Positions 5,631 through 54,981 of a DNA stretch of 64,000 nt are shown here, one piece after another. Source of the DNA: Histomonas meleagridis (Eukaryota > Parabasalia > Tritrichomonadida > Dientamoebidae); assembly GCA_020186115.1 (NCBI GenBank), contig WSYJ01000036.1, positions 1,178,001 to 1,242,000 of the forward strand, given 5' to 3'. The position numbers were made by a program, and so were the translations under genes. The notes under the pieces were generated by a model. That model made no database searches. It worked only from the letters and a program-made list of their open reading frames with translations, and was not told where the DNA came from. Positions within the stretch are counted from its first letter, which is position 1. Each line of letters opens with the position of its first letter.

Positions 5631-6000
5631 AACCGAATCTGGCAAAAGTCCCTATCGGCCATGAATTCACTAGCTTAGGCAGGAATTTGGAAGAACATTT
5701 AATTTTATGATACAATGGATTAATGAAAGATCACCACAATTTTTGCCTTTAAATTAATACTACTTAGTTTAATCAATGTACTGGTAAACTTGATCTTTTT
5801 TGTAAATATATGCATTATTTAATTTTATAAACTTTATAATAAGCTTCAAATTTTTTATTTATTTGTTCTGTGTTCAAACCTTGCTTAAAAAATATTTTGG
5901 AATCGATACTCTTCTTACACATAATAACGGATGATTAACAAACTTAAAAACATATCTCACAAACAAGTGAGACATTTTAAGATAAATAGATATAGAATTC
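5631..6000. other. AT-rich intergenic region
   Basis: No coding frame can be supported. A CCTATCGGCC stretch sits near 5651, just after the stop of the ARM-like gene. The rest is low-complexity A/T. Confidence 0.5.
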
Positions 6001-24139: not shown

Positions 24140-27100
24140 ATGATCAAAAGCATGTTCGCTTGCACTGTGTTGTTTCAAGTTTACTCATATCTATTAAATC
24201 ACTCAAAACTTCTTACTGAAAAGATAACGCCCGAGAAACATAAGGTACTTTATCAATCATACAGATTTACCTCGAAATTTTCAAAAGCTAAACTTTCAAA
24301 TAAATTACATTTAATCACTATGAACCTAACATGGAGCTCCATTTTTATTTTTTTTAATAATTTTTACTCTTATTTAATATCCAAAAATTATTTTTTGGTT
24401 GATATTACTTCAAGTAATTTGTATTCACAATGCTTGTTGTACTTCCCAGGTACAGTAACAATGAATTTATTAATTAATAATCTTCAATTTTCTAGCTTTC
24501 TTCTCCAACAAAATGATTCATTAAAAAATAGAAAATTCTTATTTGATTTGAGAAACAATATAAAGTTAACTTTTTCTGGTTTCGATTTTGAGTTCATTCG
24601 GGTTGCTTTTGACCAATTCTTTTCTTCCTTGAATAACATTTTAATTTTGTTTTCAATTTTTAGTATGCTTTTTATCAAAATAAAAGTTTATTTAACCAAG
24701 GTTTACTATAATGATAATCAGAAAAAAGAAAAGTTTAAGTTCAAAATTATTCCTCTTATTTTTATTCTCTTTTCTATACATTCATTCGAAATATTTGATC
24801 ATGTAACGAAAACACTTACTATTACAAATTCTAGTGAATATCAAACGAAGGATGAATATCTAACCCAAGCTCAACATATTATAATTTCTGGAAGTATCGA
24901 AGAAATAGAAAATAACGCATTCTATGAATGGCCTATGAAATTGGAAAAACAGTTACTTCGATTGGAACAATAGCATTTTCTAAATGTATTTACCTTAGAA
25001 ACGTAACAATTGGAGATAATGTGATAAATATAATGCATGCTGTATTTAGGGAGTGCATTAACTTAGAAAATATAACATTTGGAAAAAGTGTAGCAAATTT
25101 AGGAAAAAATGTATTTCAATATTGTTCCTCATTAACAAGTATAATATTACCAAATTTAATTAATTCAATTTCAGATTATACATTTCATTTATGTTCAAAC
25201 ATAAAAGTAATCACAATTCCTGATTTGGTTGTTTCAATTGGGAATTATGCATTTTTAGAATGCGGTGGGTTGAATTGGATCAAATTAAACACAAATTCAG
25301 CACTCACTGTAATTGGAGTGGGTGCTTTTCGAAACTGTGTTTCATTAATATATTTTTTCGTTCCGAAAAATGTTAGTTATATTACATCATTTGCTTTTGC
25401 AGGATGTGACAATTTGCAATTTATCGAGGTATCTGTAGAAAATATTTATTTTTGTAATAGTAATAATGGAATTCTTTATAATAACAATATTACAAAAATT
25501 ATTTGTTGCCCTCCTATAATTTCATCGAATTTATTTGAAATCCCCAATTCTGTTGTCACAATTGGAAATAGTGCATTTCACCATAGTCAAATGAACAAAT
25601 TTAGTATTGGGGAAAACGTTAAAACAATTGAAGCTAATGCATTTTATCAAAGTCGGGTAAAAGAATTTAACATTGGGAAAAATGTTCAAACAATTGGCAA
25701 TTATGCATTTTATCAATGTAATTATTTGGTAAATATCACAATTCCTAATTCAGTTACTTCTATCGGATCATATATATTTTCTGGCTGTTCCAGTTTGAAA
25801 ACTGTCAACATTGAAGGAAACTTAAATATTATTGAAGATTATGCATTCGTTGACTGTTCATCATTAACAAATATCACAATCCCTGATTCAGTTACATCTA
25901 TTGAACCTTATGCTTTTGGTTCATGCAAATCACTAAAAAATATTTTAATTCCAAAGTCAGTCATAAATATTGGATCACCAGTCTTTATAGGATGTACAAA
26001 TCTCATGTTTATAGAAATATCTGAAGGAAACGATTATTATTGTCATGATAACAATGGAATTCTTTACGATAAAAGACTTACCAAAATTATTTGTTGTCCA
26101 CCAGGAATTTCATTAAATACGATTGAAATCCCTGAATCAGTTAATACAATTGGAGATTATGCGTTTTATCAATGTTTAACATTAATAAATATTTTAATTC
26201 CAGATTTAGTGACAACAATTGGAATTTATACATTTTATAAATGCTCATCATTAACAAGTATTGTAATTCCTGATATAGTTACAACTATAGGACGTTATGC
26301 ATTTTATGAATGTTTATCATTAACAAATATCTTGATTCCTGATTTAGTTACAACAATTGAGATTCATCTATTTTATGGATGCTCTCAATTAAAAACAATT
26401 ATAATTGGCGAAAGTGTATCAACAATTGAAAGTTCTTCATTTTACAACTGCAAAAATCTTACTTGTATTTATTTCAAAGGGAATAAATCCCCCACTATAT
26501 CAGCTGTTTGTTTTACTAATGTGCCAGTAAAATATGTTATAACATCATATTTATATCAGGATTCGTTATTTGGTCCTTTTTCCGTGTCTAAAGTTGCATC
26601 AGTTGAAGGATGTGATCAATATTTTCCAACATATACATTTACTATGTCAAATACTTTTTCAAAATCAAATACACTGACTCTATCAAATTCATTTTCTAAA
26701 TCTAATACATTTTCTAATTCAAATACATATACAAAATCAAATTCATTTACTAAAACGAATTCATTTACTAAATCAAATACATTTTCTAATTCAAATACAT
26801 ATACAAAATCAAATTCATTTACTAAAACTAATTCATTTTCTGATACCAATTCATTTACTAAAATTAATACATTTTCTAATTCAAATACATATACAAAATC
26901 AAATTCATTTATAACTTCAAATTTAAAATTTAATATGACATTTATTGAAACAATAGTTTTAATTCAATCAATTACAAGAACAGTTATTTCACGAACTTTC
27001 TTTTCGAACACAATAACTCTTTCTATATTTGGTTCTTCATATTCTTATATTGAAACTATATTCGTTTATTATAATTATACTATTATTGAATATTCATCAT

Positions 27101-27405
27101 ATATCTCAATTTATTCAGGTTTTTATACGATTATTAATGAAAATGAAAATAATTATAATCAAAATACGAATGATCAAATCATTCTTATTGTTTGTATTTG
27201 TGTTGCCATAATTGTGATTATTATAATACTTGTCATTATTCTTGTTCGTATTCATAATAAAAAACAAAGTAGTCATGAAAGTATGAATGAAGACAATAAT
27301 AATAATAAAGATATTACATTTAATAATTTTACTAACCTTTCAAATATTGATGAAGATCCATTTGAACAAGATTTTAAAGAAGAGAAATATTTTCAAAATA
27401 TTTAA
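24140..27405 (+). pseudogene. BspA-like leucine-rich-repeat surface protein, frameshifted
   Basis: From about 24880 the DNA encodes roughly twenty 23-residue LRR_5 repeats (pattern IGxYAFYxCxSLTNIxIPDSVTS). A Ser/Thr/Asn stalk of TFSNSNTYTKSNSF units (26630-26920), a transmembrane helix (IILIVCICVAIIVIIIILVI) and a 50-residue acidic tail ending EEKYFQNI follow. Such proteins in trichomonads are surface proteins implicated in adhesion. Two defects are visible. First, the LRR frame starting near 24928 is out of frame with the upstream frame, which ends at 24973 after the first repeat (IEEIENNAFYEW). Second, the upstream frame (from ATG 24140) begins with about 190 residues unlike any BspA start before a signal-like FKIIPLIFILFSIHS. 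It is a broken gene, or intact only if the assembly has an error here. Confidence 0.75.
26630..26920 (+). repeat. In-frame Ser/Thr/Asn stalk repeat
   Basis: A degenerate 72-nt (24-residue) repeat, itself made of 18-nt (SNxFxK-like) steps, encodes the low-complexity stalk between the LRRs and the transmembrane helix. It begins TFSKSNTLTLSNSFSKSNTF and is followed by copies of FSNSNTYTKSNSFTK at about 26709, 26781 and 26871. The hydroxyl-rich composition suits heavy glycosylation near the membrane. Confidence 0.8.
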
Positions 27406-28784: not shown

Positions 28785-30009
28785 ATGAATCAAAAGCAAA
28801 CTGCAACAACAAACCAGAAATCTCAAAACGAATGGGAAACATTTACAACGCTCAAGAACATAATCTTTGGTTTGAATATAGATAATTTTCCTCAATCATC
28901 AAATATTATTCTCAGCAAATTTTGTAAAGAATATCCAATATCTTATGATATCATTATATGCCAAATGATATATATCTCTTTTCTGATTAATAGTAATAAT
29001 TTTGATATATATTTGAGATTATTACAAGAAATTGAAAAATATGAAGAAAATAATAATATCAACTCAAAAATAATAAATTTATTTTCTCAATTTCTTCTTC
29101 AAGAAAACACTCAAGAATCATTTTATTTACTTAATTATATGATTAAGTATAATTTAATTGAATCAAAAATCATCCAAAATAAATGTGAACCATTTTTTGT
29201 TCATATTAATCAAGATCAATTAGTTAGATATAAATATTTTTTTAATCAAGAAAATATTTCTTATGAAGAACTTTCGAAGAATGATTTTGCACTTCATAAG
29301 CAATTAATTAAAGAAGGAGTTAATCCAAATGAAATTGCAAAAATAATTCGAAATGATGAAATAGAAAAACTACAAGAAATATCATCACAAAATGAATTCG
29401 ATTATAATCAAATTATTCCAAAATCAATTTATGAAAGATGTTCATTTATTAACAATTGGAATGTTACATTAATTGATTATGCAGCATTTTTTGGATCAGT
29501 TAAATGTTTTAAATATTTACTTATGAATGATTCTAAAATAGATAACACAGGTAAATATGCAGTTGCAGGTGGAAATGAAGAAATTATTCATTTATGTGAA
29601 CAAAATCATTCATCATTTAAAGATGCATATAAAACAGCAATTGAATTTCATCGAAATGATATTTTTTATTATCTTTATGAAAATAAAATTGAAGATAATA
29701 ATAATTTAAAAGAATTAGGAAAAATATGTGTTTCATATTTTAATTATGAAATTTTTACATATTTAGAAAAAGGAGGAATGAAAATTAATGAAAATTAATG
29801 AAAATATCATTAATGAAGCAGCAAAAATTGGAAATATTTTTCTTGTAAAATTTTTCCTTAAAAATAATCAACTTCCAGAAGATATTTTAGTTTTTGCTTC
29901 ATTTTCAGGAAATATTGAACTTGTTACATACATTTTAAAGCAAAGAGGAATTGATATTAATGCTAAAGATATTTATTTGTTTTATTTAAAATTTATTTTG
30001 ATATTTTGA
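28785..30009 (+). pseudogene. DUF3447/ankyrin repeat gene broken by a 10-bp duplication
   Basis: The first frame (ATG 28785 to TGA ending at 29798, 337 residues) has the usual DUF3447-family front part (helical; YEELSKNDFALHKQLIKEGV NPNEI) and then degenerate ankyrin repeats (TLIDYAAFFGSVKCFKYLL; GKYAVAGGNEEIIHL). At about 29779-29798 the 10-mer AAAATTAATG is tandemly duplicated and shifts the frame. Without it, GGMKINEN would continue smoothly into NIINEAAKIGNIFLVKFFLK, the ankyrin repeats in the next frame (to 30009). The second frame then ends inside the first spacer of the 170-bp array. Members of this family are very numerous in trichomonads. This copy appears disabled, though a +1/-2 programmed shift or array splicing cannot be excluded. 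Confidence 0.7.
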
Positions 30010-32275
30010 TATTTCAAAATAATATTTGGAAATTATTTAAATTATTTAGAACAGCACTTATTTTAGCATCTAAATATGACAAAATAGAAATCGTTAAATT
30101 ACTTCTTGAACAAGAAGGAATTGATATTAATGCTAAAGATATTTATTTGTTTTAATTAAAATTTATTTTGATAATTCGATATTTCAAAATAATATTTGGA
30201 AATTATTTAAATTATTTCAAACAGCACTTATTTTAGCATCTAAATATGACAAAATAGAAATCGTTAAATTACTTCTTGAACAAGAAGGAATTGATATTAA
30301 TGCTAAAGATATTTATTTGTTTTAATTAAAATTTATTTTGATAATTCGATATTTCAAAATAATATTTGGAAATTATTTAAATTATTTCAAACAGCACTTA
30401 TTTTAGCATCTAAATATGACAAAATAGAAATCGTTAAATTACTTCTTGAACAAGAAGGAATTGATATTAATGCTAAAGATATTTATTTGTTTTATTTAAA
30501 ATTTATTTTGATAATTCGATATTTCAAAATAATATTTGGAAATTATTTAAATTATTTAGAACAGCACTTATTTTAGCATCTAAATATGACAAAATAGAAA
30601 TCGTTAAATTACTTCTTGAACAAGAAGGAATTGATATTAATGCTAAAGATATTTATTTGTTTTAATTAAAATTTATATTGATAATTTGATATTTCAAAAT
30701 AATATTTGGAAATTATTTAAATTATTTAGAACAGCACTTATTTTAGCATCTAAATATGACAAAATAGAAATCGTTAAATTACTTCTTGAACAAGAAGGAA
30801 TTGATATTAATGCTAAAGATATTTATTTGTTTTAATTAAAATTTATTTTAATAATTTGATATTTCAAAATAATATTTGGAAATTATTTAAATTATTTCAA
30901 ACAGTACTTATTTTAGCATCTAAATATGACAAAATAGAAATCGTTAAATTACTTCTTGAACAAGAAGGAATTGATATTAATGCTAAAGATATTTATTTGT
31001 TTTAATTAAAATTTATTTTAATAATTTGATATTTCAAAATAATATTTGGAAATTATTTAAATTATTTAGAACAGCACTTATTTTAGCATCTAAATATGAC
31101 AAAATAGAAATCGTTAAATTACTTCTTGAACAAGAAGGAATTGATATTAATGCTAAAGATATTTATTTGTTTTAATTAAAATTTATTTTAATAATTTGAT
31201 ATTTCAAAATAATATTTGGAAATTATTTAAATTATTTCAAACAGCACTTATCATAGCATCTGTAAAAGGTCATACAGAAATCGTTAAATTACTTCTTGAA
31301 CAAGAAGGAATTGATATTAATGCTAAAGATATTTATTTGTTTTAATTAAAATTTATTTTGATAATTCGATATTTCAAAATAATATTTGGAAATTATTTAA
31401 ATTATTTAGAACAGCACTTATTTTAGCATCTAAATATGACAAAATAGAAATCGTTAAATTACTTCTTGAACAAGAAGGAATTGATATTAATGCTAAAGAT
31501 ATTTATTTGTTTTAATTAAAATTTATTTTAATAATTTGATATTTCAAAATAATATTTGGAAATTATTTAAATTATTTCAAACAGTACTTATTTTGAGCAT
31601 CTAAATATGACAAAATAGAAATCGTTAAATTACTTCTTGAACAAGAAGGAATTGATATTAATGCTAAAGATATTTATTTGTTTTAATTAAAATTTATTTT
31701 AATAATTTGATATTTCAAAATAATATTTGGAAATTATTTATATTATTTTGGACAGCACTTATTTGGGCATTTTATGAAGGTTATACAGAAATCGTTAAAT
31801 TGCTTCTTGAACAAGAAGGAATTGATATTAATGCTAAAGATATTTATTTGTTTTAATTAAAATTTATTTTGATAATTCGATATTTCAAAATAATATTTGG
31901 AAATTATTTATATTATTTTGGACAGCACTTATTTGGGCATTTTATGAAGGTTATACAGAAATCGTTAAATTACTTCTTGAACAAGAAGGAATTGATATTA
32001 ATGCTAAAGATATTTATTTGTTTTAATTAAAATTTATTTTAATAATTTGATATTTCAAAATAATATTTGGAAATTATTTAAATTATTTCAAACAGCACTT
32101 ATTTTAGCATCTGAAAAAGGTCATACAGAAATAGTTAAATTGCTTCTTGAACAAGAAGGAATTGATATTAATGCTAAAAATATTTATTTGTTTTAATTAA
32201 AATTTGTTTTAATAATTTGATATTTCAAAATAATATTTGGAAATTATTTAAATTATTTAGAACAGCACTTATGCG
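29880..32275 (+). repeat. Tandem 170-bp ankyrin-plus-spacer array, 13 complete periods
   Basis: ACAGCACTT (or ACAGTACTT) recurs at 30051, 30221, 30391, 30561, 30731, 30901, 31071, 31241, 31411, 31581, 31752, 31922, 32092 and 32262. The spacing is exactly 170 bp except one 171. Each unit has 96 nt encoding an ankyrin repeat (TALILASKYDKIEIVKLLL EQEGIDINAKDIY) and a 74-nt A/T-rich spacer (begins TTGTTTTAATTAAAATTTAT, includes TTTGGAAATTATTTAAATTA) with an early TAA. Because 170 is not divisible by three, successive ankyrin pieces are in different frames. Variant units differ mainly in the ankyrin helix positions (VKGHTE, FYEGYTE, EKGHTE, KYDKIE). The array ends abruptly at about 32272. Confidence 0.95.
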
Positions 32276-32751
32276 GACATTCCCATCCGGTACCGGACAC
32301 GAAAATCTGTCCATCGTTCAGAAATTTCTGTCAAAAAAATAACCGTCATATATGAATAACCGGCTTGCAAGCCGAAAAAAATGTCCATCGGCCGGAAATT
32401 TCTATCAAATTATTAACGGTCACCAATCACACAATTAAACAGAAGATAAAAATATTATAAACATTTTTTTCAACAATACTTGTATCTACTGGTTTAGATG
32501 TGGTTAATTGGTACATCCAGTCTTTGCTTAGATGACCGTTTGTGTATTGTATCGTACACGAATTTGAATGGAAAGTGACTAAATTCAAATAAAAATTTTA
32601 AAAAAATTATTATATCTTCATAAAAATTTGTCTATTGTTCTTATATGTTAAAATCTGATATGTATTAGATACATTACGAATAATTTCAAAATTAAAAAAT
32701 AATCTATAAGAGGATAAGTTGGTTGACAGTGTCTCATTTAAATTTAATTTA
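32276..32751. other. Non-coding segment between the array and the pogo-like element
   Basis: The array breaks into unrelated DNA containing GTACCGGACAC, a perfect 14-bp palindrome CGGCTTGCAAGCCG (32361-32374), and a direct repeat TGTCCATCG plus GAAATTTCT.TCAAA at 32309 and 32382 (73 bp apart). AACCGTC and TTAACGGTCACC also occur (32341-32430). The layout resembles a promoter patch or the remnant of a small mobile element. No gene follows it. 32430-32751 is plain AT-rich sequence. Confidence 0.4.
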
Positions 32752-32803
32752 CAGAGAACGGAATGAACCGGTAGTCATTGAATTGGCCGTATAGTGATTT
32801 GAA
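32752..32803. repeat. Left terminal inverted repeat of the pogo-like element
   Basis: Starts CAGAGAACGGAATGAACCGG and ends with GGCCGTATAGTGATTTG. It pairs with the right end at about 35370-35420, with a short degenerate middle part. Confidence 0.8.
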
Positions 32804-33299
32804 TACATCACAATTTTTTTTGAATTACTATTTGGTCATATGAAATTATATAAACTATTCAAATTTATTATCACTTCACCTTTATTGATGTAAACCATAG
32901 AAAAAAATGCTATTCAAAATCGAATGATAAAAATAAAAACAAGTATATCTCGTCAAATATTTAGAATTTACTGACTAAAATATCAAAGATATTGAATACC
33001 ATAAGAGTAAATTATAAGAATAAATTATAAACATATTTTGACTGATTTTACTTCCTTCTTACAAAATGAGATTATTAGCTTATATTTTATCATTTTTTAA
33101 ACCAACAAAATTGTCCAACTGAATAAAATAGATTCAACAGACTCAACATTGTTTATGTAAAATGTTTCATTCATTTTTAACATATATAACAATAGAATAT
33201 TTTATGCTAATTGTTTATTTGACGATATTTTTCGTCCAAGTAAATTCTTTTGATTCCATTAATATTTTTTATGATCAGATCTGGAACAGGTGTCAAAAT

Positions 33300-34826
33300 T
33301 TACCCCATTTTTTCAGTATATGCATACAAAAATTTGATATCACTCTTCATTTTTTCTAGAAAATAAACTGGTTCAATGGTCGTCAAATTACTATTATTTT
33401 CTACTTCATAAACAAATTTCAAGTTTTCCAGGCTTCCATTCAAATGGTGATTATTTACCAAATTTCCATTTTGAATTTTGTCATATAATTCAGGAAATTT
33501 GGTTCTTAGAGAAGTGTCCATTGCATATTGACTAGATAAAGGAATTTTTGGATTTAATGAATATAATCCTGAGGCTCTAAACCCGCTTTGAATATTATCA
33601 ATTGAAGCAGTATCTGATTATGCAGATACCAGACATTTTATCATCATAATTCTATAGCTTTGAGATTCCTCTGAGTTCTATCAGTACCACCAAATAAACT
33701 TAGCTCATATTGCAATAACTTTTACTTATATATTGTCTTCAATGGTGAAGCTATAGCAACATCAAAAGGCTGTAATAAATGAGAAGTATGCCCAGGAAAT
33801 ACTAATATATCAATCCCAAACATCTCAAATGATCTTGCAACATTATAATTGGCCCTACTTTTATGTCCATCAACCAGCAAAAGAATCCTCTGTTTTCTCG
33901 ATTCTGGTTTGAGCTGAAGTCTATAAATTTGAATTTCAGCTAAGAATGTATATGCCCAGTAAGTAAATAGTTTTTTGTTGGACCAACCTGTTGGTGATGT
34001 TGCAAAATGCCCAAGTTCTTTGACTTCTTCAAGCCCACTCAATGTTTTTTTATCCCTTAGGATAAACAATGGTTTCATAACATATCCACTTGCAGATACC
34101 GTTATACAAGCAGTGATGTGTGGAAATACTAAAGATGATTCTGTAAGTGGGATTTTGCCTTGAGTTACCAATATATTAAATTTCTTTTTTGATGAAACCA
34201 TAGTTTCATTCATGTTAAAAATTAATGCAGGATTCCTCTTAAGTAGGTGAGAATGCTTGGAAAAAAAGTCTTCTATTGCAACTTTATCACAAGCAATTCT
34301 TCTTAATGTTTCCGATTCAGCAGCAGGAACCACACTTAGATTATTTGTATTAGCCATTTTTCGAAGCCAAGTCAATTTCTCTCATTCTCGTCAATATTTT
34401 TTTGCAGTTGCATATTTCCAATAGTTTTCTGGCTTTTTCAGCTCTCTCTTTTATGAGAGTTGTTGATATTTTCATTGCATCACATGTTGACAAACAATTT
34501 ATATCATTTTCTCTTTCATGAACTATATCTATGAACTTCTTCATATCCAAATCAGAAAGGATTGGCTCCCTACCTCCTTTTAAGTTTTTGTCCCAATATT
34601 TCCCACAAGCTGTTCTTAATAATATTCGTCCAACAACTTTATCACCACATAATTTATGCTTCTCTCTTATTTGTGCGAAGGTCTTTCCAGTAAGTTTTTC
34701 CATGTAAATCATTACCTGTTTCGTAGAAAGAGTAGATTCGTTAGTCGATGCATTTATCAACTCCTGTATCAAAACGGTTGCACACTGAGGATTACTTATT
34801 ATAAAGCTATTCAGCAGGGCAAACAT
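33300..34826 (-). pseudogene. Pogo/Tigger-like DDE transposase, disrupted
   Basis: Three consecutive pieces of one protein lie in different frames. 34826-34350 (ATG start) has a helical DNA-binding/HTH-like part (LSDLDMKKFIDIVHERENDI). 34375-33722 has the catalytic core: FNMNETMV (first acidic residue changed from the usual NMDET), LLLVDGHKSRAN (second Asp) and HTSHLLQPFDVAIASPLK (third Asp region). After several stops, around 33620-33300, the C-terminal signature NIQSGFRASGLYSLNP appears. The first frame change falls at a run of five As near 34353 (TCGAAAAATGG). The altered first catalytic residue and at least two frame breaks mean this copy cannot encode an active transposase. Confidence 0.85.
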
Positions 34827-34856
34827 TTTCGTTCTCTTCTCTTGCCTTTTTTCTGT

Positions 34857-35291
34857 CTACTTATTAGAAGAAACATTATTAGAAACAGGATTTGGATTCA
34901 CAAATTGAGCAAGATTTGGATGTTGAGAAAGGATGCATTTATTAATATCTGGAATAAAACTTCTATCATCATTATGTGTGCTAAGAGGAGCTTGTACTGT
35001 GATATTTTGAGGTTGCGAACTTGAAAAATAATTTTGATCATTTCCAGATCTTTTCCCAAGATCTGGAATAAAACTTGTGTTATTGTTATGTGTGCTAAGA
35101 GGAGCTTGCAGAGCAAAATTTTTTGAAACCCTGACATTGTAAGAAAGATGACATTTCATTCTTAAAAATAATTCTATTGAACTGTTATCAATTCTATCAA
35201 AAAATCGAATGTAAAATATACAAAACATAACGTTTTCACTCAATTGGCCGTATAGTGAAATTGAATGTATCAATTCACATTTTCTTCTCAA
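34857..35291 (-). other. Open frame at the transposon right end with an internal duplication
   Basis: A 144-codon frame reading inward from the right end. It contains two copies of APLSTHN..(T/R)SFIPD about 114 bp apart (CTAAGAGGAGCTTG at 34981 and 35095). Its first residues are translated from subterminal repeat sequence. It may be a decayed N-terminal extension of the transposase or non-coding duplicated DNA. Confidence 0.4.
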
Positions 35292-35369
35292 TTATTGTAT
35301 CGTTTCTATCGGAAACCCACTTTTTCTACATAACTGTTCACATGATGATATGAATTATATGTGCTATCA

Positions 35370-35420
35370 CAAATCCACTATACGGCCATTCAATCCACTA
35401 TACGGCCATTCCGCTTTCTG
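35370..35420. repeat. Right terminal inverted repeat of the pogo-like element
   Basis: Contains two direct copies of CCACTATACGGCCATT and ends CCGCTTTCTG before TA. It is the complement of the left end. The doubled box suggests a transposase-binding subterminal repeat. Confidence 0.8.
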
Positions 35421-35483
35421 TATTACGATAAGCGTAGCTTTTTCAATATATGACGATCAAAACTTGTTTTATTTCGGTTGTTT

Positions 35484-36735
35484 CCAAAAATCCGTAAGAC
35501 CAAATAGCGATTCAAAAGTCATTTAGATGGAATACGAAGTATATGACCCATCGAAATCCAAAGAATGGAACATTTTAAACCTTAAAAACAAAGGAAACAC
35601 AATCAAATTTATTTCACATGTTTGTCATTGTAGTAATGAAAGAATTTATAAAACTTTAAATTACTATAAACAAAATAAAGAATGTCCTTCTCCAGCACAA
35701 AGAGGAAGGCCAACAAAGCTTACAGATTCAATGATGCAACAAGTTGATGCTTTTACGTCTGCTGATCCGACAATTAGTGAGGGATCATTATCATTGATTT
35801 TACCTTTATCTCCAACTTCAATAAATAGAGCAAGGCACAAACTTAAGTATAACTGGAAACCTTGTAAAGTGTGTCAAAATTTAAGTGAACAACAGATATC
35901 AAAACGCATAAATTTTTTTAACAGATATACTAAATGACCTAAATTTTCAATACGACAAAATCATTTTTTCCGACGAATCGCGGTTTTGTTTAAGGTCAGA
36001 CGGGAAATGGGTTTGGCGGAAAAACGGCGAAACCTCAGATCAGATTATAGCATTAAAAGAATAATTTCCAAAAGGAGTTATGGTATTTGCAGCTATTGGG
36101 GTCGATTATAAAAGCGATTTAATTTTTATTAATGGAACCGAGAATTCAAAAAAGTATGTTGAAATTTCAAAAACTCATTCAGTATTTCCCACACTTGATC
36201 ACATTTCTGGCCAACGTCAATGGATATGGCAACAAGATGGAGCACCATCTCATACCTCTTATTATACGAAAGATTTTCTCAATGCGATGTGCGTTTGGTT
36301 AAATAATTGGCCACCAAATAGTTGTGATCTCTCCCCAATAGAAAACCTGTGGGGTATATTAAAACATTTTGTTAATGCACACGACCCAAAAAATATAGAT
36401 GAAAATACCAAATTTATTTGAGTGCAGATAACCCTTGGACGTTTTTTGAAGACCATATGAAAATGATATATCATTCACAATTTGGAGACGATTTTATCAA
36501 AATATCAAAATTTTTCGTCAATCGGACGCCCCCAGAGATTGAAAGTCGTTACAAGTTCCTGATACAACACTCGATGCAGAATATTAGCCCACTAATACAG
36601 CACCCAAACATTTTGCATCAAATTTTGTAATTCAATATATTATTTCTACTTTTTGATTATTGTACGTTAACCAAAAATCCGTAAGAATAAACCATTGAAT
36701 TTCTTTCAAAAGTAAAGAAAAGTCACGGATTTTTG
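35484..36735 (+). mobile_element. Decayed Tc1/mariner-like transposon
   Basis: CCAAAAATCCGTAAGACC at 35484 and the complementary ACGGATTTTTG ending at about 36735 form inverted ends around a Tc1-like transposase relic. An additional same-orientation copy of the left end (CCAAAAATCCGTAAGAATAA) lies at 36671, making the right end composite. A TA duplication is not evident at these limits, so exact ends are uncertain. Confidence 0.65.
35527..36421 (+). pseudogene. Tc1-like DD34E transposase, disrupted
   Basis: 35527-35937 encodes the N-terminal HTH part (QRGRPTKLTDSMM). A single-base frame change at about 35930 joins it to LNFQYDKIIFSDESRFCL (first catalytic Asp). An in-frame TAA near 36062 interrupts the frame, which then continues as FPKGVMVFAAIGVDYK. 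36080-36421 carries WQQDGAPSHTS (second Asp) and CDLSPIENLWG (Glu). There are 34 residues between second Asp and Glu, the Tc1 spacing. A further frame change may link to 36418-36630. With a frameshift, a stop and probably a second shift, the gene is dead. Confidence 0.85.
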
Positions 36736-53365: not shown

Positions 53366-54475
53366 ATGAATGAAAAAAGAAAAGAAAAAATTTTCAAGAA
53401 TAGAATAAACATAATTACACATCAAACAGAAAATGGTCATGACATGGATTCCAATTTAACCACTAAAAATTCAATTTTAATTGGAATAGATTCCCCAAAT
53501 CATTTTATTAATATTTCACCTGAAATGCTTGAAACTAAAATACAATACGGGAAAGATGTAGTAGATTTTCACTTCTCTACAGTTCCAGGAGAAAGCTCAA
53601 TTCGTTGGTTCATGATTAAATCTCAAGGAAAATTAAACAACACTAGGTACTCTATCTATGTAGGTAACTTCAATCTTAATGACAATAACCTTGAAGGAAA
53701 TTCTCTTCTTCTTTATCGATTTCCCAAACTTGCCTTAATTCAATGGGTTCCAAACACTAATGACCAACTTTTTATGCTTAAAGAATCTAAGCTTTATCAC
53801 ACACAGCTTCCTACTGCAGCCAACAACAATTCTTTATTGACTACAGATCTTCTTACGAATGCCATCACTTTTATTCCTACACAAAACAACAATTATTTTG
53901 ATCTCATTTATACCACGTATAATGACCTTATCAAAGAAACTAAAATTTATGGACTTAAATTATCTGCCAATATAATAAATAACAAAAAATCGTTATTTGC
54001 CAAATGTAATACAGAAATCGAATTTCTTGCGACCTACCAAAATGATCTTTTGTACTCAGATTACAAAGGAAACATTTTTTTTGTTGCGATGAAATGTTCA
54101 TATAATGAAATTCTTTCAACAAATGAACAAACTTTCATTACGCAAATCAAAGATATCATTACAATGCGTTCATACAACAACATATTTCTTGTGATATCTC
54201 AACACGAAGATGGCAAATATTACATCTACGAAATAATTCCGGACGAAAGAAAAGCGATTTTGAGATTAATCGATGACGAAATCGGCGGAATTTCGGACGA
54301 CTTGAGATGGGTCATCACGTCGAAAGGAGTGTGCGACTTCATGAAGATATCGAATGACTTCTTAGAGAGCGCAAACTTCACAAGAGCGCAGGCGCTGGTG
54401 TTGAGGTATCAACTGCTGAAGAAAAGAGAAAAAAGACTCAAAAAATACTTGGAAAGCTTGGGAAATGATGAATAA
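53366..54475 (+). CDS. Beta-rich protein, possibly WD40-like, unknown
   Basis: A 369-residue protein. From about residue 60, alternating short strands (RWFMIKSQGK, LALIQWVPNTNDQLFMLKES, DLLYSDYKGNIFFVAMK, NIFLVISQHEDGKYYIYEII) resemble blades of a propeller. The last 60 residues are helical and basic (RAQALVLRYQLLKKREKRL). It may be a partner subunit with a propeller and C-terminal helix, but no family signature is clear. An internal Met at residue 27 (MDSNLTTK) is an alternative start. The final 240 bp are clearly more GC-rich than the rest of the gene. Confidence 0.6.
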   Translation: MNEKRKEKIFKNRINIITHQTENGHDMDSNLTTKNSILIGIDSPNHFINISPEMLETKIQYGKDVVDFHFSTVPGESSIRWFMIKSQGKLNNTRYSIYVGNFNLNDNNLEGNSLLLYRFPKLALIQWVPNTNDQLFMLKESKLYHTQLPTAANNNSLLTTDLLTNAITFIPTQNNNYFDLIYTTYNDLIKETKIYGLKLSANIINNKKSLFAKCNTEIEFLATYQNDLLYSDYKGNIFFVAMKCSYNEILSTNEQTFITQIKDIITMRSYNNIFLVISQHEDGKYYIYEIIPDERKAILRLIDDEIGGISDDLRWVITSKGVCDFMKISNDFLESANFTRAQALVLRYQLLKKREKRLKKYLESLGNDE

Positions 54476-54537: not shown

Positions 54538-54981
54538 TAAAAACATAAATAGTTTGATAATAAAAACATAAGTAGTTTAATGTATATAAAAACATAAATT
54601 GTTTGATAATAAAAACATAAGTAGTTTGATATATATAAAAACATAAATAGTTTGATAATAAAAACATAAATAGTTTGATATATATAAAAACATAAATTGT
54701 TTGATAATAAAAACATAAGTAGTTTGATGTATATAAAAACATAAATAGTTTGATAATAAAAACATAAATAGTTTGATATATATAAAAACATAAATTGTTT
54801 GATAATAAAAACATAAATAGTTTGATGTATATAAAAACATAAATAGTTTGATATGTATAAAAACATAAGTAGTTTAATGTATAAAAAAACATAAGTAGTT
54901 TAATGTATATAAAAACATAAGTAGTTTAATGTATATAAAAACATAAGTAGTTTAATGTATATAAAAACATAAGTAGTTTGA
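54538..54981. repeat. Minisatellite of alternating 23- and 26-bp units
   Basis: About 18 units related to AAAAACATAARTAGTTTRAT. The left two-thirds largely alternates a 23-bp form ending TTTGATAAT with a 26-bp form ending TTTGATATATAT, a 49-bp higher-order period. The right third (from about 54845) is nearly pure 26-bp units ending TTTAATGTATAT. Long open frames on the minus strand here (YVFIYIKLFMF-type) are products of the repeat and not genes. Confidence 0.95.

Follow-up and report, generated by a model that had tools for sequence, protein, structure and literature searches.

The window, a stretch of 64,000 bases from the 43.3-Mb assembly of the poultry parasite Histomonas meleagridis, carries on its forward strand an ankyrin gene that runs into a tandem array. 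The first coding segment is a 337-residue open reading frame at 28785–29798 (+), near the end of which a DUF3447 domain is recognised (PF11929, 36.6 bits against a cut-off of 26.9). A tandem 10-base duplication at 29777–29805 breaks the frame of this segment. The array opens with a diverged ankyrin segment, DILVFASFSGNIELVTYILKQRGIDINAKD, located by HMM at 29881–29970 (+) with 20.2 bits. It is followed by a first gap at 29971–30050 (+) and, at 30051–32181 (+), by 13 ankyrin segments of 90 bases each, separated by 80-base gaps and placed by HMM, parse and anchors. Pfam was applied to three units of the window, and all three exceeded the PF00023 cut-off of 21.1 bits, with 31.9, 34.2 and 36.0 bits. 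Positions 32182–32273 (+), read from the sequence, hold the final gap and then 12 bases that begin a fourteenth ankyrin segment; at 32273 this segment is truncated by unrelated sequence. Outside the gene, 1.4 kb past the truncated end, lies a neighbouring remnant of a DDE_1 transposase at 33722–34375 (−) (PF03184, 52 bits). No pair of exact 14-base inverted repeats more than 200 bases apart was found at 32251–35600. Two overlapping open reading frames are present past the array end at 33722–34826 (−), the first of them containing the DDE_1 match. The array is best explained as the 3′ part of a DUF3447-ankyrin gene from a large H. meleagridis family. The copy in the window is probably a decayed member of that family, given its 10-base duplication, a +1 insertion and the truncated end near a transposase remnant.

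The anchor ACAG[CT]ACTT occurs 14 times at 30051–32262, with twelve steps of 170 bases and one of 171, which bears out the original prediction of a fourteen-copy, 170-bp array with a single longer step. Tandem Repeats Finder reports 29946–32272 with a period of 170, 13.7 copies, 95% matches and a score of 4067. The HMM places the +1 insertion, predicted near 31591, within the ankyrin segment at 31581. The predicted unit of 96 nt of ankyrin code and a 74-nt spacer has to be redrawn, the complete unit in the window being 90 contiguous bases of ankyrin code and an 80-base gap. This gap consists of four blocks, each made of a 17-base AT-rich element and one codon (slot), giving 68 element bases and 12 codon bases. 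In the first gap, as delimited by the parse and by slot statistics over 181 gaps, element 1 (29971–29987) is followed by codon AAA, element 2 (29991–30007) by GAT, element 3 (30011–30027) by GGA and element 4 (30031–30047) by AGA, all on the + strand. The four slot codons alone give the turn D-x-x-G-x-T-A-L, the standard turn of ankyrin repeats. With DxxGxT restored by the slots and PF00023 over its cut-off, the units qualify as ankyrin repeats. Removing nothing but the elements leaves uninterrupted repeats of 34 residues. Of the two removals suggested earlier, 68 nt for 34 residues thus stands, as four 17-base elements, and 71 nt for 33 residues does not. For the 12 listed 80-base gaps of the window the slot reading is K-D-G-R, K-D-G-Q or K-D-G-W; the 81-base gap also contains the letters for K-D-G-Q.

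A genome search with array sequence, one of the checks proposed beforehand, was performed with a 340-base query. It returned 182 matches, which by our own count of the matches listed represent at least about 39 separate loci; only 40 candidates were scored, so the family size is a lower bound. An ankyrin HMM was then run over 38 sequences (37 loci and the window), picked from the best DNA and ankyrin matches and not at random. It yielded 294 gaps shorter than 200 bases, measured from the aspartate end of one segment to the threonine start of the next and leaving out units below 10 bits, non-positive gaps and gaps reaching 200 bases. The most common length is 80 bases (200 gaps), followed by 63 (27), 60 (14), 83 (12) and 100 (5), with 66 (4), 40 (3), 140 (2) and 86 (2) among the rarer ones. 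Collapsing copies left 181 distinct spacers in the 80-base class, so that each copy is counted once; paralogues among them are not independent.

The slots of these 181 gaps behave as codons. Of the 181, 150 have a glycine codon at offset −23 relative to the threonine codon, compared with at most 7 at other offsets; among 27 spacers mutually less than 70% identical over their last 40 bases, it is found at −23 in 12 and at any other offset in at most 3. The first slot mostly encodes K (64), N (44), D (27) or E (16), the second D (42), Y (35), N (31) or S (17), the third G (150) or E (18), and the fourth K (37), E (32), N (20), R (19), Q (17), W (17), Y (14) or D (12). Only one stop is present among the 724 slot codons, and none among the 229 slot codons of the 63, 60, 83, 100, 40 and 140 classes. 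By comparison, 776 of 2033 TAN and TGN triplets outside the slots are stops. Within the slots TAT occurs 57 times vs. a single TAA, and TGG, TGT or TGC 31 times vs. no TGA. This skew shows that the third slot base is coding and therefore fixes the element borders between codons. Triplet entropy is the highest of all offsets at slots two (3.52) and four (3.45); slot one, at 2.85, ranks fifth behind two offsets that overlap slots. Apart from a single position in element 1 and another in element 3, the elements are poor in G and C, and the slots are richer. An architecture of elements and codons, with fixed element length, recurrence at many loci and protein-like constraint on the codons, is therefore present in this family and is well supported.

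In a neutral-slot parse, a length of 17 scores 19142 and the next best single length in the range 12–23 scores 13505; the elements thus have a single fixed length, as does the class of ultrashort introns. Merged sets of lengths (17 with 34 or 51; 22, 29 and 17; 17, 34, 51 and 68) score 20652–21436 and thereby outdo 17 alone, an effect of the penalty charged per element. A free-length parse prefers 29 + 22 + 17, which makes the same total of 68 as four 17s; counting up to three overlapping paths per sequence, it contains 853 elements of 17, 662 of 29 and 572 of 22. A free-phase parse distributes the elements over phases 0, 1 and 2 as 511, 144 and 526, respectively, so that phase is not fixed by this parse itself. 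Both free parses see AT-richness only and pay per element; it is the variability of the slots together with their avoidance of stops that decides in favour of four elements in phase 0. Other segmentations were rejected. A single 68-base intron per unit scores 17243, below 17 alone, and leaves the codon slots unexplained. Merged elements of 29, 22 and 17 with an invariant Asn-Asn would turn variable, stop-free triplets into non-coding ones. Borders shifted by one base run against the third-base stop avoidance and against the element ends.

Most gap lengths are accounted for by whole elements and whole codons. Removal of i elements, with i set to the gap length divided by 20 and rounded, leaves the frame intact if gap length and 2i agree modulo 3. 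Of the 294 gaps 273 do so, as do 247 of the 268 distinct gaps and 66 of the 87 distinct gaps other than 80 bases, a group for which chance would give one third. Among the 21 that do not fit, two (12 and 15 bases, both in locus L001) are element-free turns. The 63-base gaps lack element 1 and retain its codon, the first remaining element resembling element 2 in 16 of 21 cases, with a tie in the other 5. Most elements begin with R-TTT and end with ATTT, with no GT...AG. R-TTT...TTT ends are in register in 399 of 724 elements and in at most one at shifts of 1–3. Among 43 distinct elements that match a common type at just 11–12 of their 17 positions, 86% have A or G at position 1, T is found at positions 2–4 in 79–81% and at positions 15–17 in 74–86%, and the centre is freer. 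The end pattern fades in the 18 most diverged elements, several of which come from gaps of doubtful register.

In the ankyrin segments, 11 of 260 distinct units carry a stop, and in 6 of these 11 cases the unit is the final one called in its sequence. The synonymous rates of the mutation types concerned predict 35.7 nonsense changes, and 4 were observed, in the ankyrin segments of the 247 of 260 units within 30 differences of the consensus, with the other 13 left out; 3 further nonsense changes are of a mutation type that has no synonymous rate. Variation is located at ankyrin positions such as 5, 8, 9, 11 and 12, and variable positions of this kind are usual for ankyrin surfaces. The dN/dS comparison proposed beforehand was of no help: the ratio is 1.02 in 4000 close pairs and 0.77 in 4000 diverged pairs, and it provides no support since one out-of-frame control lies below the in-frame values at 0.42 and 0.38 (second control: 1.04 and 0.91).

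Conventional introns of this genome were identified in protein kinase genes. In eight of nine loci fetched they have the form GTATGTTT...CTAACACATAG and a length of 57–144 bases, and the ninth (L093) contains a longer insert with ACTAACACACAG at the corresponding place. A U6-like RNA with an ACAGAGA box scores 43.7 bits, just below the family cut-off of 44. The absence of trichomonad splice motifs from the window array, as originally claimed, holds also for the motifs of the species itself, GTATGT and CTAACACA.AG; in the 268 distinct gaps CTAACACA occurs in none and GTATGT in 2. The elements show neither the GT...AG borders nor the GTATGT/CTAACACATAG signals by which a parabasalid spliceosomal intron is recognised, and by motif they are not conventional introns. 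Several motif searches were discarded. The Trichomonas vaginalis 3′ motif ACTAACACACAG has 3 matches in the genome vs. 2 for the control, one of them being the intron end in L093; GTATGT followed after 8 to 30 bases by ACTAACACACAG has 0 matches; GTATGT followed after 4 to 34 bases by TAACACATAG has 1 match, as has the control, and the kinase introns inspected are longer than this. Seven of the kinase loci (L085–L089, L091 and L092) have an intron at one shared site ahead of the codons for G(Y/R/F)LPF(D/E)D, and some of these introns carry an internal inverted repeat. At G000:C78:376002-376739 (−) a protein kinase domain lies within an open frame with a reported length of 22,955 residues.

Similar inserts were seen beyond the arrays. 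Locus L008 is a diverged ankyrin gene of non-array type, parsed by eye, in which removing six 17-base inserts and one 18-base insert restores ankyrin spacing at three turns, two other turns having no inserts. Two proteins related to it, P0001 and P0002, are 44 and 40% identical to it and, in their protein sequences, contiguous over the first of its insert turns (NPQNKKGETPLH in P0001); at the next turn they finish in a hydrophobic tail, which looks like putative read-through. By hand count, 17 of 20 DUF3447-family proteins of relatives (P0046–P0066 without P0061) end at the first turn or no more than some 30 residues after it. In the proteins P0094–P0100 of a relative the spacers are read in frame and measure 21 or 22 residues, equivalent to 63 or 66 bases; at the protein level their letters fit the H. 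meleagridis elements. Back-translation of the tail of P0072, a relative of a Tritrichomonas foetus protein, suggests at the same ankyrin turn a GT...AG intron some 28 bases long; this putative intron is only a lead. In another H. meleagridis ankyrin gene, L095, the element-free turns read DKYGRTAL, DKHGRTAL, NKDGETAL and DKDGRTAL, with the residues of the array slots. A scan with the element ends over 256,899 bases off ankyrin units found one place at length 17 (L008) and 0–4 at control lengths, and a looser scan over 231,556 bases gave 7 candidates elsewhere, L008 included, compared with 4 or 0 at the two remaining frame shifts; scans of this kind off ankyrin units have no power. At one candidate off ankyrin units, at position 5816 of the window, a gene was looked for and none was seen.

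In the coding sequence of the ankyrin turn, 17-base AT-rich elements, in most cases four of them, separate single codons, and we propose that these elements are taken from the RNA as ultrashort intron-like pieces. The process would not use the species' GTATGT/CTAACACATAG signals and would leave D-x-x-G-x-T-A-L and repeats of 34 residues. Removal at the RNA level, which we infer from sequence patterns and to which we assign a probability of about 0.6, would explain the conserved ends, the fixed length, the coding slots and why whole elements can be present or absent without breaking the frame. It counts against this reading that the elements fall between whole codons, a placement splicing has no need of, and that we know of no three-base exons between 17-base introns. 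A more tentative proposal, which we hold at somewhat under even odds, is that H. meleagridis and its relatives possess, beside conventional introns, a second removal system acting on 17-base RUUU...AUUU elements, several per repeat and dozens per message, with single-codon exons.

The position between whole codons, evident from the third slot base in the arrays and by eye in L008, together with the lack of splice signals, would suit translational bypassing, known from T4 gene 60 and Magnusiomyces mitochondria. The elements would then stay in the mRNA, the ribosome skipping each 17 bases and resuming at the next codon, which would explain their common phase. However, that phase may be inherited with the 20-base block, the take-off codon equals the last three bases of the element (the landing codon) in only 12 of 724 cases, and about 50 skips per protein would be needed. 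Nor was a consensus fold seen, the alifold energy being 0 on 60 diverse gaps, a result that says little, as the column-shuffled control is also 0. Bypassing is thus an unlikely reading. We regard it as improbable, too, that the family consists of untranslated relics, that is, of once-working arrays spread by unequal exchange and conversion that merely inherited their codon pattern. The frame-breaking duplication, the +1 insertion and the truncated end of the window copy, the dN/dS near 1 among close units and the stop-carrying units, 6 of the 11 being the last ones called, are what a relic would display, but the deficit of nonsense changes, the slots that vary yet are nearly stop-free over 37 sequences, window included, and the location of the variation at ankyrin positions such as those named above speak against it. 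The dead pseudogene or satellite of the original prediction may accordingly describe the window copy and does not account for the family as a whole.

Translation of the elements themselves, in frame in the 60- and 63-base gaps or after frameshifts in the 80-base gaps, is very improbable. The in-frame spacers of P0094–P0100 would agree with it, although the database admits only open frames, and 118 of 181 80-base gaps are open over 60 bases in the frame of the next segment. However, an in-frame stop is present in 12 of 14 60-base gaps and 10 of 21 63-base gaps, and 63 of 181 80-base gaps contain one in the frame of the next segment and 110 of 181 in that of the previous segment. Simple reading through the elements was rejected on account of these stops, and the slot statistics would be left unexplained. 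As short, AT-rich, length-constrained inserts between codons, the elements also recall the internal eliminated sequences of ciliates, whose excision from DNA would produce a working copy free of elements. Unlike those sequences, they do not have TA at both borders and adjoin any codon, e.g., GGA. The contiguous-turn pattern matched 14 places (control 0), each of them at least two mismatches away from the array letters, and the one match fetched, L095, is the other ankyrin gene described above. We consider DNA excision scarcely probable at all. The same matches leave the suggested store of donor cassettes unsupported, since its expressed form would need to lack the elements. The original interpretation is hence upheld in part: its non-canonical exon–intron array fits best of the three options offered, with the "intron" resolved into four 17-base elements with codons between them.

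Elsewhere, introns with a fixed length of 15–17 bases all use GT...AG and none leaves one-codon exons, to our knowledge. Spliceosomal introns of 16–17 nt are described in mikrocytids (PMC10245619) and AU-rich ones of 15–16 nt in Stentor (PMC9505925). Compared with these introns, the H. meleagridis elements are alike in their fixed length near 17, their location within coding sequence and their conserved ends, and their AT-richness matches the AU-rich introns of Stentor (PMC9505925). They are unlike both in lacking GT...AG, in usually standing several in a row with one codon between, and in occurring, within the sequence scanned, only at one turn of one protein repeat. Trichomonad introns fall into types A and B (PMC12316389); these too are short and occur in parabasalids, the introns of the eight H. 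meleagridis kinase loci resembling type A with their extended motifs, and the elements differ by the absence of GTATGT and CTAACACA.AG from the window array. The layout of elements and codons has no match among the intron-like systems compared, as each known kind tested fails a defining feature. No description of such elements was found in the literature searched, which had most subscription journals outside its reach, and searches of the Dientamoeba and Histomonas-ankyrin literature returned nothing bearing on them. If the elements are indeed removed, a gene can be divided as finely as single codons, and inserts of fixed length can be recognised without GT...AG. The system would then test the smallest exon size and ideas on how introns arise and multiply, and members of the family would be cut short in present annotation.

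The window contains further repeats. A tandem array with units of 49/26 bases, TAAAAACATAAATAGTTTGAT..., lies at 54538–54981, just after an open reading frame at 53366–54475. BspA-type leucine-rich repeats together with an 18-base repeat are present at 26127–26923, within an open reading frame at 24928–27405.
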